A DNA stretch of 64,000 nt, taken from positions 186,001-250,000 of the forward strand of contig DATJRY010000017.1 of the NCBI GenBank assembly GCA_035504415.1. The letters are read 5' to 3'. Positions within the stretch are counted from its first letter, which is position 1, and the number at the start of each line of letters is the position of its first letter. This document shows, one piece after another, positions 47,980 through 55,817 of this stretch. The translations under genes were made by a program, and so were the position numbers. The DNA is from Candidatus Sulfotelmatobacter sp. Lineage in GTDB: Bacteria > Vulcanimicrobiota > Vulcanimicrobiia > Vulcanimicrobiales > Vulcanimicrobiaceae. The notes under the pieces were generated by a model. It saw nothing but the letters and a program-made list of their open reading frames with translations. It was not told where the DNA came from and made no database searches.

Positions 47980-49020
47980 ATGTCCAGCACGGCCCAGGTC
48001 CCGCAGCTCGTCGTCCCCGCCGGCGGCTTCGCGCCGTTCCCGGAGGTCCCGCAGCCCAACATCTTCCCGATGGAGTGGCGCGTCGAGACGCCCAAGCTGG
48101 CCGAGATCTACGAGCGCTCCAAGCGCCACGTCTGGAATCCGTCCGACTTTCCGTGGGACACGCTGCGGGCCGAGGACTTCACCGAAGAGCAGCGGCTGGG
48201 GATCATGTACTGGTACGCGGTGCTGGCGAACTTCGACGGCTCGGGTCCGGCCGTGTTCGCCAAGGCGACGATCCACGCGTTCGAGACGCACCAGGAAGAC
48301 CCGATCCGCAAGTGCTTCTTCGCGATCACGCGCGACGAGATGAACCACGAGGAAGTCTGCCAGCGCGCGATCCAAAAGCTCGTGCCGGGCGGCCCGATGG
48401 ATTTCACGGCCACCAGCGATCTCGCGCGCGCCGCGCAGAACAACATCGGTTGGCTCTATCACAACGGCGGCCGCTACTGGTCCGGCTACTCGAACTCGTT
48501 GCAGAAGTATCCGCTCAGCGTGCTGTTCACCTCGTTCCTAATGGGTGAGGTCGCCAGCTCGACGCTGTTCTTCGGCATGTCGAAGAAGGCGACGCACCCG
48601 GTCTTCAAGCAGATCTTCGCCAAGGTCGGCCAGGACGAAGCGCGCCACCTCGCGATCTGTCTGACGGTACTCGAGCGCGACTGGCCGGGACTCTCCGACG
48701 AGTACAAGACGCTCATCACCAAGCAGCTGCGGGCGGGCTTCGTGTTCCTGAGCATGATCCTGTGGGAGCCGCCCAATCAGTTCTGGGACATCCCCGACTA
48801 CTTCTTGCCGAACCACCGCGTGCTCGTGCAGCACGCGCGCGACGCCGGCCTGGGCGTGCTGACCTACGACGAGCAGGCCGAAAACTGGCGGGTCGCCCTG
48901 GCGCGCGTGCGCGCGATCGTCGGCGAGTGGGGGATCGAGTTCCCCGCCATCCCCGAGCTCGACCTCGACGGCGTCGACGTCAGCGACATCGGCCCCGAAG
49001 ACATCATCCCGGTCTTCTAG
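47980..49020 (+). CDS. R2-like ferritin-fold diiron oxidase
   Basis: 346 residues from the ATG at 47980 with GAGAGGA upstream. The carboxylate/His pattern of the ribonucleotide-reductase-R2/bacterial-monooxygenase superfamily can be assigned: Glu102 (HAFETHQED), Glu120 and His123 (RDEMNHEEV), Glu190 (LMGEVASST), Glu220 and His223 (GQDEARHLA). That set binds a di-metal centre in a four-helix bundle. No radical-generating tyrosine can be placed with confidence. It is not a normal NrdB, because no NrdA is nearby. N-oxygenase- or ligand-binding-oxidase-type chemistry is possible. Confidence 0.72.
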   Translation: MSSTAQVPQLVVPAGGFAPFPEVPQPNIFPMEWRVETPKLAEIYERSKRHVWNPSDFPWDTLRAEDFTEEQRLGIMYWYAVLANFDGSGPAVFAKATIHAFETHQEDPIRKCFFAITRDEMNHEEVCQRAIQKLVPGGPMDFTATSDLARAAQNNIGWLYHNGGRYWSGYSNSLQKYPLSVLFTSFLMGEVASSTLFFGMSKKATHPVFKQIFAKVGQDEARHLAICLTVLERDWPGLSDEYKTLITKQLRAGFVFLSMILWEPPNQFWDIPDYFLPNHRVLVQHARDAGLGVLTYDEQAENWRVALARVRAIVGEWGIEFPAIPELDLDGVDVSDIGPEDIIPVF

Positions 49021-49146
49021 CCCGACACGGCTCTGCCGAAAGGGGTCTAGGCTTGGAATATCCGCGCCCTTGTCGATCGATTGATAGTGGATGATCACGG
49101 TTCGTCGCAACATCGGCGCCGTTATCTCGCTCGATTATCGCGCCGG

Positions 49147-49926
49147 CTAGGGACTCGGAAGTTGCCCGAGTTCCTCTGCAAATGCGCCAAGATCGGGGTA
49201 AACCGTTCCTTTGGTGACGCCCCATCTTCGAAGCCAACTTCGTAAGAAGCCTTTTGAACCTTTTGGGATGTGCCACTGATATAGTAGCCAGTCGACAGAG
49301 GGCAAGTCCCTCAAATCGGTCCCCTCGCTATGAATCGTAAATTGGGCTTGTTGCACGAGCATACGAAGGTCAATTAGATGGCCCGTAACGGCAAGTGCCC
49401 GTCGGGATGCAGCCCCATCGTAAGGAGCTACTTGGCCGAACGCTTGTTGCACGAGCACCATCACGTCTGGGTGGCTTGGCATCAAGAGCGTATACTGATT
49501 GCGATGTTGTTTGTTGAGCCCGCTTGGATTTAGCGCCCAGATACAACCATCTTCATCGTCGTGCTCAACATTGCATACCGCAAAGTACAAAGCTATCAAT
49601 GGGCTCGCTGACCAATCCAGCAGGCGAGTCGGAAGTCCATAATGTTGCGCGTATTGCAGCCATGCAAAGAGATCGGCCGAGGGTGGTGGATTAGGCATGC
49701 GCGCCGGAGCCCCGAGGGTGAATCGAATCAACAACGAGATTTCGTGATACCTAGGATCACGAAAAACATGAGGCCGAAGATTCCATGCAGCGTTGCCGTG
49801 TCCCCGCCAGTAAACGTCGGAGCCGAACCTTGTATTTGCAAGTTGAACCGCATGTTCAAGATTTTCAAAGCTACGAATGTCCTCAGTCATGCGTCCCCAA
49901 GTCGCCTCTAAAGGCACATTACTCAT
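49147..49926 (-). CDS. FRG-domain protein in an AT-richer island
   Basis: 259 residues from the ATG at 49926 with GGAG upstream. The FRG domain is recognisable: DVYWRGHGNAAWNLRPHVFR (near residue 40) and QHYGLPTRLLDWSASPLIAL (about 95-110), here with W-R-G instead of F-R-G. The domain is of unknown chemistry and recurs in phage-defence and mobile contexts. The gene's base composition is near 50% GC by eye against about 69% around it, and its codons end in A/T far more often. Recent horizontal transfer is therefore likely. It sits alone between two normal genes. Confidence 0.82.
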   Translation of the reverse strand: MSNVPLEATWGRMTEDIRSFENLEHAVQLANTRFGSDVYWRGHGNAAWNLRPHVFRDPRYHEISLLIRFTLGAPARMPNPPPSADLFAWLQYAQHYGLPTRLLDWSASPLIALYFAVCNVEHDDEDGCIWALNPSGLNKQHRNQYTLLMPSHPDVMVLVQQAFGQVAPYDGAASRRALAVTGHLIDLRMLVQQAQFTIHSEGTDLRDLPSVDWLLYQWHIPKGSKGFLRSWLRRWGVTKGTVYPDLGAFAEELGQLPSP

Positions 49927-49950
49927 GGCGACTCCGGCCGTATCTAGCAA

Positions 49951-49983
49951 GAAGCGTCGACATCATTCAAGTTTCGACGCTTC
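49951..49983. promoter_or_regulatory. Perfect 10-bp inverted repeat upstream of the FRG gene
   Basis: GAAGCGTCGA (49951-49960) and TCGACGCTTC (49974-49983) are perfect complements separated by 13 bp, 24 bp before the FRG start codon. It could be an operator for a dimeric regulator, an RNA hairpin in the leader, or an end sequence of the acquired segment. No T-run follows. Confidence 0.55.
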
Positions 49984-50113
49984 GGGCTTGGACCCAGTTT
50001 GCGCGTCGTTCTCTTCCAGTGTCGCGAACGCGCTAGTGACGTTATGGTCGCACGGCGATGACGTGGAGAGATTGCGCGTTGAAGTGGCTCGGTATCAGGT
50101 CGCACTCCGGCGG

Positions 50114-50548
50114 TCACCCGGTCGCTCCGACGTAGACGGCCGCTAGGACCGTCAGCAGAATCGGGACCGCGGCGCGCAGCAAGCGGATCGGGGCGATGCG
50201 ATAGGTCTGGTTGCGGCCGAGCTGGACTTGCAACCCGGTCGTCCAGCCGACCAGCCCGCAGACCTCGGCGATCGTGAGGAAGACCAGGAACAATGCCGGC
50301 GCGGAGGTACCGTCGGGCGGCGTCGCGGCGACCGCGAAGCCGAGCACGATGACGACGGCGGCCACGATCGCCGGGGCCAGCCAGACGAAGCCGCGCGGCG
50401 CGAGCCAGCGTGGCCGGCCGTCGAGGCCGATTTGCAGCGGAATGCGTGGCGGCGCGTTCGGCCACAGGCGCGCGACGTGGCGGATCAGCAGCAGCGTCGC
50501 GAGGACGGCGATGACGTAGCCGGCCAGGACCAGCGGATCGCGCAGCAC
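50114..50548 (-). CDS. DUF1648-like membrane protein
   Basis: 144 residues from a GTG at 50548, one base after the acylphosphatase stop. Helix 1 is LVLAGYVIAVLATLLLI. It is followed by PPRIPLQIGLDGRPRWLAPRGF, the 'IP.H....G.P..W..k' block of DUF1648, and then three more helices. DUF1648 proteins often belong to SdpI-like immunity or membrane-stress proteins; here only the minimal domain is present. It is the last gene of a coupled minus-strand run. Confidence 0.65.
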   Translation of the reverse strand: MLRDPLVLAGYVIAVLATLLLIRHVARLWPNAPPRIPLQIGLDGRPRWLAPRGFVWLAPAIVAAVVIVLGFAVAATPPDGTSAPALFLVFLTIAEVCGLVGWTTGLQVQLGRNQTYRIAPIRLLRAAVPILLTVLAAVYVGATG

Positions 50549-50549
50549 C

Positions 50550-50849
50550 TCAGGACGTACTCGCGCGCGCGAAGCGAGTTGCACCCGTCGGCGGCGCCGC
50601 TTCGCGCTCGACCCCTTCGACGCGAGCGTAGCGCGGCGGGTGCGCCAGCACGTCGTCGAGGAAGGCGTCGACGTCGTCGGCTGTGCCTTCGACGTCGATC
50701 TCCAACTGCTCGCCGTCGCGCACGTTGCGTACGTGGCCGAAGACCGCGTGTCGCCGGGCGACCTCGAGCACGGTGTCGCGAAAGCCGACGGTCTGGACCC
50801 GCCCGCGCAGGCGCACGATCGCGCGCACACGCCCCTCGCCGCCGCTCAC
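50550..50849 (-). CDS. acyP: Acylphosphatase
   Basis: 99 residues from a GTG at 50849 that overlaps the upstream stop (GTGA). The active-site block is RLRGRVQTVGFRDTVLEVARR, with the catalytic Arg in VGFR, and the Asn is in GHVRNVRDGEQ. The common 'QGVGFR' appears as QTVGFR. It hydrolyses carboxyl-phosphate mixed anhydrides. The C-terminus continues 12 residues beyond the usual end (REAAPPTGATRFARASTS). Confidence 0.88.
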   Translation of the reverse strand: MSGGEGRVRAIVRLRGRVQTVGFRDTVLEVARRHAVFGHVRNVRDGEQLEIDVEGTADDVDAFLDDVLAHPPRYARVEGVEREAAPPTGATRFARASTS

Positions 50850-53175: not shown

Positions 53176-54054
53176 CTGCTCCAGCTGATCGTCGCCGGCC
53201 TGACCGTCGGCAGCGGCTACGCGCTCGTCGCGCTGGGCTTACACATCATCCTGCGCGCGACGCGGGTGATGAACTTCGCCCAGGGTGAGTTCACCGTCGT
53301 CGGCGGCCTGATCGCGCTGACGCTGATGCAGACGTTCCACGCCACCAGCGTGGTGGCGCTGATCGGGGCTACCATCTGCGGTTTCGTGCTCGGCCTGGGC
53401 TTCGAACGCTTCGTGCTGCGGCCCGCCGCGCGCTCGGGCGAGATGGGCGTCACCATCGCGACCGTCGGAACGGTCTTCGTCTTGCTGTACGGTCACGCGC
53501 TGGTGCCCACCTGGGGTTCGCTGCAGCAGCCGCTGCCGCCGTTCACCGGCCGGCTGAGCGACGCGATCGTCGTCGCCGGGGCGACGATCCAGATCCAGTC
53601 GCTGTGGATCGGCGCGCTGCTGCTGCTGGCGCTGGCGGCGCTGTACGTCTTCTTCGAGCGCACGTACTACGGCAAGGCGATTCGCGCGGCGGCCAACAAC
53701 CCGCTGGGCGCGCGGCTGGTCGGCATCGACGTGACGCGCGCGCGCGCGATCAGCGTCGGGCTCTCGATCGCGTTGGCGGCGTACGGCGGCACGATTATCG
53801 GCCCGATCACGCTGGTCGGCGGCGCGGGCGGCGTCGCGATCGCGATCAAGGGTTTCGTCGGCGCGATCGTCGGCGGCCTCGACTCGCCGATCGGCTGCGT
53901 CGCCGGCGGCCTGCTGGTCGGCGTCGTCGAGAAGTTCTTGCAGAGCGGGCTGGGCGCCAGCCGCGCCGAGCCGACCGTCTACGCGCTCTTGCTGGTGATG
54001 CTGCTGCTGCGCCCGCAAGGGCTGTTCGGCACGCGCGGAGCGGTGCGGGATTGA
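53176..54054 (+). CDS. livH: Branched-chain-type ABC permease LivH, CTG start
   Basis: 292 residues from a CTG at 53176, placed 6 nt after a perfect AGGAGG. No ATG, GTG or TTG occurs in frame until deep inside the first conserved helices (TRVMNFAQGEF), and none lies near upstream. Family blocks: VGSGYALVALGLHIILRATRVM, NFAQGEF, AIRAAANNPLGARLVGID and the final LLLVMLLLRPQGLFG. It is one of two membrane subunits of an importer for amino acids or aromatic acids. Its stop overlaps the TTG start of the livM-livG fusion. Confidence 0.9.
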   Translation: MLQLIVAGLTVGSGYALVALGLHIILRATRVMNFAQGEFTVVGGLIALTLMQTFHATSVVALIGATICGFVLGLGFERFVLRPAARSGEMGVTIATVGTVFVLLYGHALVPTWGSLQQPLPPFTGRLSDAIVVAGATIQIQSLWIGALLLLALAALYVFFERTYYGKAIRAAANNPLGARLVGIDVTRARAISVGLSIALAAYGGTIIGPITLVGGAGGVAIAIKGFVGAIVGGLDSPIGCVAGGLLVGVVEKFLQSGLGASRAEPTVYALLLVMLLLRPQGLFGTRGAVRD

Positions 54055-55817
54055 TCGACCGTCTCCGCGCCGACGCGCGCGTGCTGCCGGCCATCGCGCT
54101 GCTGGTGCTGCTGGGCGGCCTGTTCCTCCACGGCGCCGGCTTCGTCCAAGCCGCGACGTACGCCGCGATGTGGGCGATCGCCGCGATCGGGCTCTCGGTG
54201 CTGCTGGGCAACGTCAACCAGATCTCGCTCGGCCAAGCGGGTTTCTTCGCGATCGGCGCTTACGCCGTCGCCGCCTGCATCGACCTCGCGAACCTGCCGT
54301 TCTGGGTCGGCGCCGTGGCGGGGATCGTCGTCGCCAGCGTCGTCGGCGTCGTGCTCGGCTTCATCGCGCTGCGCTTTCGCGGTCACTACTTGGCGATGGC
54401 GACGCTCGCGTTCGGGCTGATCGTGCAAGGCGTGTTCCACCAGAGCCAGGCGCTGGGCGGCGCGAGCGGCTTCACCGATCTGCCGATCGTCAAGCTCGGG
54501 CCGTTCTCGCTGGCCGGGACGGCCGGCTACGCGTGCGTGTGGATCGTCGCGCTGGTCGTCGCCGCGCTGACCCTCAACCTGCTGCGCGGTCGCACCGGCA
54601 CCGCGTTCGAGACGATCCGCAACGACGAGCTGGCCGCCGAAGTCCTGGGCGTGCCGACCCGGCGCTACAAGATCGTCGCCTTCGCGTACGCCGGTGCGCT
54701 GGCCGGGCTGGCCGGGGCGCTCTACGCGCCGCTGATCGGCGTCGTCGTGCCGGATGCGTTCGGCGTCGATCGCTCGATCGATTTCCTGTTGATGGTCGTG
54801 CTGGGCGGGGCGGGCAGCGTCTCGGGCGCGATCGTCGGCGCGGTCGCGATCGGCTTTCTCGACGTGGTCGGCAACCAGTTCGAGAATTGGCGCGAGGTCG
54901 TCTACGGGCTGCTGGTCATCGCGATCGTCGTGGTCGCGCCGGGCGGTCTGTTCGGCCTGGTGCGGCGCGGTTCGCGTCGCCGCACGGCGCCCGTCGCGCG
55001 CGTCGGCACGGTCAGCGAGCGCGCGCCCGTGGCCCGGCCGATCGCGCCGCCGGCGGCGACGCCGCTGGAGGTGCGCGGCGTCACCAAGCGCTTCGGCGGC
55101 CTGGTCGCGGTGGACGACGTCTCGTTCGCGCTCGCGCCCGGCAGCTTGACCTCGCTGATCGGTCCCAACGGCGCGGGCAAGACGACGCTCTTCAACGCGA
55201 TCTGCGGCGTCGGCCGCACGAGCGCGGGCCAGGTACGGATCGGCGGCGTCGACGTCACCGGCTGGCAGCCGCACCGCATCGCCAAGCTCGGCGTCGGCCG
55301 CACCTTCCAGAACGCGCGCCTGTTCGGCGAGATGACGGTGCTCGAGAACGTCGTGGCCGGCGCGTTTCGCGCCGAGCGCACCGGTTTCGCCGCCGACTTG
55401 CTCGGCCTGCCCGCCGCGACGCACGCGCGTCACGAGGCGATCGAGCGCGCGCGCGACACGCTGGCGCAGCTGCGCATCGAGCATTTGGCCGGCACCTACG
55501 CGCGCGATCTGCCGTTCGGCGATCGCCGCCGCGTCGAGCTGGCGCGGGCCATCGCCGCCGACCCGTGGCTGCTGCTGGTCGACGAGCCGGCGGCCGGCCT
55601 CAACGCGTCCGAGCGCGAGACGCTGCAAGGCGATCTGCTGGCCCTGCGCGACCGCGGCGTCACGCTGCTGCTGATCGAGCACGACATGCGGCTGGTCATG
55701 ACCATCTCCGAGCGCGTGCTGGTGCTGGAGTTCGGCCACACCATCGCCGACGGCGTGCCGGCCGCGGTGCGGAACGACCCGCAGGTCGTCGCCGCGTACT
55801 TGGGGACCGCCGGCTGA
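54051..55817 (+). CDS. livM-livG: LivM permease - LivG ATPase fusion
   Basis: 588 residues from a TTG at 54051 (TTGA overlap). Residues 1 to about 300 are LivM: GLSVLLGNVNQISLGQAGFFAIGAYA, then AFETIRNDELAAEVLGV and a last helix. An Arg/Ala/Pro linker (RRGSRRRTAPVARVG) leads to LivG at about 340: Walker A GPNGAGKTTLF, GRTFQNARLFGEM, a degenerate signature LPFGDRRRVELARA, Walker B LLLVDEPAAGLN and EHDM. Fusion fixes permease and one ATPase in a single chain; livF supplies the other ATPase. Confidence 0.92.
   Translation: MIDRLRADARVLPAIALLVLLGGLFLHGAGFVQAATYAAMWAIAAIGLSVLLGNVNQISLGQAGFFAIGAYAVAACIDLANLPFWVGAVAGIVVASVVGVVLGFIALRFRGHYLAMATLAFGLIVQGVFHQSQALGGASGFTDLPIVKLGPFSLAGTAGYACVWIVALVVAALTLNLLRGRTGTAFETIRNDELAAEVLGVPTRRYKIVAFAYAGALAGLAGALYAPLIGVVVPDAFGVDRSIDFLLMVVLGGAGSVSGAIVGAVAIGFLDVVGNQFENWREVVYGLLVIAIVVVAPGGLFGLVRRGSRRRTAPVARVGTVSERAPVARPIAPPAATPLEVRGVTKRFGGLVAVDDVSFALAPGSLTSLIGPNGAGKTTLFNAICGVGRTSAGQVRIGGVDVTGWQPHRIAKLGVGRTFQNARLFGEMTVLENVVAGAFRAERTGFAADLLGLPAATHARHEAIERARDTLAQLRIEHLAGTYARDLPFGDRRRVELARAIAADPWLLLVDEPAAGLNASERETLQGDLLALRDRGVTLLLIEHDMRLVMTISERVLVLEFGHTIADGVPAAVRNDPQVVAAYLGTAG

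Follow-up and report, generated by a model that had tools for sequence, protein, structure and literature searches.

Frg proteins have been placed in the ADP-ribosyltransferase (ART) superfamily by Iyer, Aravind, and colleagues, who proposed for them an antiviral role, possibly as NADases (PMC9503650). Among the single-gene phage defense candidates of PADLOC, the PDC-S15-type candidates have been termed uncharacterized (PMC12482510). DUF262 proteins, for their part, form part of the defense systems Menshen, Dazbog, and PD-T4-2, and a DGxQR motif has been reported for DUF262 NTPases (PMC10952713); in the literature searched, no paper joins FRG and DUF262. Here, we describe a solo FRG gene (49147–49926, minus strand) lying on a low-GC island within the window, i.e., the whole 64,000-nucleotide stretch of DNA that was analyzed. 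We are highly confident that this island arrived by horizontal transfer, as an insertion of one gene that is specific to the lineage. The gene it carries is a new and fairly ordinary member of the known defense-candidate class PDC-S15, and taken as a whole we read it as an acquired solo ART-fold FRG effector that would use NAD+ on phage infection, an interpretation that we place on the probable side of even.

The characterization of this gene as intact, of the PDC-S15 type, and with a predicted ART-like fold draws on Pfam, PADLOC, alignment, and AlphaFold. The encoded protein matched the Pfam FRG profile (PF08867) with 74.5 bits (E 1.3e-20), which passes the curated cut-off of 25 bits, and was assigned by PADLOC to PDC-S15 (E 5.5e-41) over residues 12–253 and profile positions 39–266 of 276. 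The likeness to this candidate extends to the occurrence as a single gene and to a similar length; PDC-S15 is itself a candidate, however, and the window copy lies outside any defense island or mobile element. No partner gene was found among the ORFs at the locus. Translation likely starts at the ATG at 49926, which yields 259 aa and is preceded by GGAG 6 nt upstream, whereas a TTG at 49950 (267 aa) is a less likely alternative. In an alignment of 83 proteins, the window protein retained every residue that is invariant or near-invariant, namely R41, G42, R56, Q94, H95, R101, D104, F115, R188, and Q192, and, as judged from its sequence, it is full length and intact.

The likeness to the Frg clade of the ART superfamily consists of the FRG domain and of a predicted fold that is nearest to ART proteins; on the other side, the NADase function is itself a proposal for that clade (PMC9503650), and the fold matches of the window protein are weak. 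The AlphaFold model was confident (pLDDT 92.9, pTM 0.89). Foldseek returned no significant match for it in the PDB (best E 0.21), and no PDB relative was found by sequence, either with the single sequence or with a profile. A second look at the Foldseek candidates with VIA revealed that nearly all of them are ART proteins, the matches being weak with Z up to 5.7. The ART rows listed comprise bacterial ART toxins, Tpt1/KptA, and Rhs TreX/TreTu, with PARP1 and rifampin ADP-ribosyltransferase lower down; a few structural neighbors (CNFy, rows 40 and 44) were left out of the division into ART and non-ART. Most rows align from about residue 35, in the strand with R41-G42, to residues 220–255, and the ART-like region does not end with the Pfam FRG domain but continues into the C-terminal half of the protein, where R188 and Q192 are invariant. 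Since Z values below 8 may reflect a common arrangement, the ART assignment rests on the consistency of these rows together with the published assignment; on this footing, the modeled FRG protein weakly resembles ART folds, and an ART-like fold is the most likely one.

Relatives of the FRG protein share 22–37% identity with the window protein; an alignment query recovered them from many phyla and from viral contigs, and scans of the genome and viral contigs with the single protein yielded no relatives. The distribution is sporadic: within the phylum of the window, six of 149 genomes had a PF08867 match (five above the cut-off), and the copies in congeners have diverged and occupy other genomic places. 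Some of the relatives are encoded near AbiEii/AbiEi and ABC-3C genes, others near MazE/MazF or type I-like restriction-modification genes, or near a putative phage abortive infection gene together with one for a restriction endonuclease. Scattered defense families (BrxL, methyltransferases, DpnI-like) were also detected in the neighbor scan, which had no control set, so that no defense enrichment is claimed. Of all relatives sampled, a Pseudomonadota MAG gene (34% identity), located between the ribosomal protein L11 and EutB (eutB) genes, is the closest; the nearest solo relatives lie among ordinary genes, not in defense islands.

Two further arrangements of FRG genes were observed among these loci. 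The solo FRG genes of Lachnospiraceae and related Bacillota are found beside shared gene families (loci L055, L057, L059, L060, L067, and L074), the neighbors being sugar ABC transporter genes in loci of the L036/L055 type, which suggests that the solo position in these loci is favored or stably inherited. In Verrucomicrobiota, Planctomycetota, and a viral contig (L080:7878–10546, L100, L110, and L141), each gene of another FRG clade stands ahead of two more, one encoding a conserved protein of ~400 aa and the other, in convergent orientation, a protein of ~235 aa. Neither product had a Pfam match when the L080 copy was tested; the three genes possibly constitute a further multi-gene FRG system.

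An anti-phage role of the FRG protein appears reasonably probable to us, and NAD+ chemistry, which is deduced from the family assignment, is an even call. The defense-type cargo of the original prediction stands at the level of the family only, through PDC-S15, the published Frg proposal (PMC9503650), and the relatives located by restriction, Abi, or toxin–antitoxin genes; neither a phage phenotype nor an enzyme activity of an FRG protein was found in the literature searched. In the mechanism that we propose, the arrival of the gene as a single-gene insertion is the step documented here. The FRG protein would then be produced, presumably as a one-domain ART-like enzyme whose motifs would be R41 on the first motif strand, the QHYGLPTRLLDW block, and an R188-x3-Q192 element immediately ahead of a later strand, and it would stay inactive until phage infection. 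After a phage cue, NAD+ would be hydrolyzed, or ADP-ribose would be transferred to a host or phage target, upon which the cell would cease to support phage growth and the infection would fail.

FRG genes also occur in phages and prophages and on plasmids (350 records, of which 261 are predicted to be conjugative). Like the defense genes near some relatives, these mobile contexts agree with the anti-phage reading. Together with the resemblance of the fold to toxin ARTs, they would also suit an ART-like toxic effector or a superinfection-exclusion gene working in competition for the benefit of a mobile element and not of the host. We consider such a selfish cargo unlikely, given that no antitoxin-like or immunity gene lies beside the window gene and that no mobile element is left at the site; moreover, the functions overlap, as exclusion cargo is also anti-phage. 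The island offers a minimal unit for testing phage defense by stand-alone FRG proteins.

The clustering of neighboring genes revealed a recurrent FRG partner. A DUF262/GmrSD_N gene was located by tblastn directly 3' of FRG in 14 of 82 relatives, and nine of these 14 genes overlap the FRG stop by 4 bp. The partners are without DUF1524, their DGxQR motif is invariant in the eleven that were aligned, and the pair spans several phyla and viral contigs. The corresponding FRG proteins belong in 12 of the 14 cases to one clade (SH-aLRT 91). Examples of the pair are found at L065:7998–9805, L068:7953–9784, L076:7998–9820, L099:3452–5289, and L136:1154–2958, with further loci at L135, L137, L140, and L116, and the same pair is present on a Hymenobacter plasmid (L221:2135–4161). 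We regard FRG–DUF262 as a candidate sensor–effector defense operon. The idea of a DUF262 NTPase is what Menshen, Dazbog, and PD-T4-2 have in common with this FRG clade only; the partners in those systems are not FRG (PMC10952713), and the window locus is without DUF262.

The window gene falls in the neighboring clade (n = 22; SH-aLRT 93), which is without DUF262. Its product is similar in length to the FRG component of the paired module, but no DUF262/GmrSD_N ORF is adjacent to it at the window locus, and a search of the assembly that contains the window (95.7% complete) returned no match to PF03235. Given the operon in the sister clade, the missing PF03235 match could mean that the island is an inert passenger, that is, recently captured DNA whose gene is not, or is no longer, functional in this host, for example after being parted from a DUF262-like partner. 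A promoter scan of the FRG gene that found no sigma-70-like promoter, other promoter types lying outside the scan, points in the same direction. We nevertheless hold this to be quite unlikely in view of the intact frame, the full set of conserved residues, and the ribosome-binding site that precedes the gene; in addition, the 22-member clade without DUF262 partners indicates that the solo state is normal for the clade of the window gene.

Returning to the reading of a solo effector active on phage infection, a far-reaching and very unlikely extension of it would hold that the members of the solo clade (22 sampled, window gene included) are one-protein sensor–effector ARTs that sense infection themselves, the sister clade using an FRG effector with a DUF262 NTPase as sensor. 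If this were true, solo genes would spread as minimal immune cargo of ~1 kb without a mobility gene. Provided that DUF262 acts as the trigger and FRG as the effector, the two-gene module would give a direct route to the enzyme action of FRG and to the switching of the solo form.

The evidence for the insertion itself comes from composition and synteny. At its maximal extent, the low-GC insertion covers 49021–50113 (no strand assigned; 1,093 bp), the span between the stop codons of two convergent genes. To the left lies an AurF/R2-like di-iron protein gene (47980–49020, plus strand; Pfam AurF E 1.2e-5, under the curated cut-off), and to the right a DUF1648-like small membrane protein gene (50114–50560, minus strand; Pfam DUF1648 E 6.2e-5, also under the curated cut-off). 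The GC content of this span is 54% (53.9% for 49056–50113 and 52.3% for the FRG gene alone) vs 70.4 ± 2.9% in 1-kb windows elsewhere, the minimum of which is 63.4%. The original prediction had described an island near 50% GC in a genome of about 69%, with one clear gene encoding an FRG-domain protein, and both points were confirmed, the FRG gene being the sole convincing one inside the span. Its codon composition is foreign, with a third-position GC of 0.50 vs 0.89–0.95 in eight nearby genes (54044–55817 was left out of this set) and a GC of 0.62/0.45/0.50 at codon positions 1/2/3. In the k-mer comparison suggested alongside codon usage, the island lies 8 SD over the background in uncorrected tetranucleotide distance, but it falls inside the background range once base composition is corrected for. 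The foreign signal therefore consists mainly of low GC and codon use and not of odd k-mers, and no donor is inferred from the latter. From this composition, the acquisition would be a recent one.

In line with the original prediction, the ORF list and the repeat search revealed neither an integrase or transposase gene nor direct repeats at the edges of the island. A tRNA search was negative as well, and neither terminal repeats nor a target duplication, as further hallmarks of transposons and integrative elements, were found. None of the repeats D1–D6 bracket the island. The perfect 10-bp inverted repeat noted upstream of the start is real; its arms, GAAGCGTCGA / TCGACGCTTC, lie in the FRG leader at 49951–49983 (no strand assigned), 24 nt 5' of the ATG and with a 13-nt spacer, and could possibly form a leader hairpin. 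As a sign of acquisition or mobility, it is not distinguishable from chance, since 15 perfect 10-bp repeats of that type were observed in the window vs ~16 expected, and it accordingly provides weak evidence; the probability that a random island-sized stretch has one such repeat is P ~0.03. With one copy in the genome, zero in the congeners, and a frequency at chance level, it was rejected as an element end or as a member of a repeat family.

The surroundings of the island were compared across ten congeneric genomes, one genome per species. The left-flank gene was matched in nine of them, at 91–93% identity where full length (one match is partial and one a short fragment), and the right-flank gene is present in seven. 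Both genes were readable in place in six congeners, with stop-to-stop gaps of 5, 10, 22, 38, 430, and 434 bp, so that a near-empty site, in which they lie 5–38 bp apart, is found in four of the six. A seventh genome (G003) was rejected for this comparison of empty sites, since downstream of its left gene the right side is different, with neither the right gene nor FRG. The island DNA was absent from all ten congeners in a DNA search. The claim of an acquired one-gene cargo is thus upheld by the synteny in six congeners, the short gap in four, and the foreign codons, and what was found is not a gene shared genus-wide at the same site with normal codon use. The insertion measures no more than 1,093 bp, occupies a short intergenic slot of two convergent genes, and breaks no gene; the few bases that separate these genes in the congeners are unconserved, which prevents its edges from being located exactly. 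It provides a clean natural case in which a single foreign gene has been inserted and relatives retain the empty site. That there was no acquisition, the gene being old and lost repeatedly in congeners or an assembly error, is hardly credible, for even though the comparison rests on one genome per species, the flanking genes are nearly contiguous in four congeners, the GC3 of the FRG gene is low, its nearest sampled relative is the Pseudomonadota MAG gene and not a congener, and the site is interior to a 545-kb contig, in which the flanks to its left and right are genuine.

The 430- and 434-bp gaps hold content unrelated to the island. In G001 (locus L027), the slot carries a HicB-like ORF, below the Pfam cut-off, and in G010 (locus L029) it carries an acylphosphatase-like stretch and, with it, an inverted-repeat hairpin. 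The differing content among congeners indicates that the slot is variable in the genus, with the FRG gene only here, and the space between the two flanking genes may represent a small slot for recurrent insertion.
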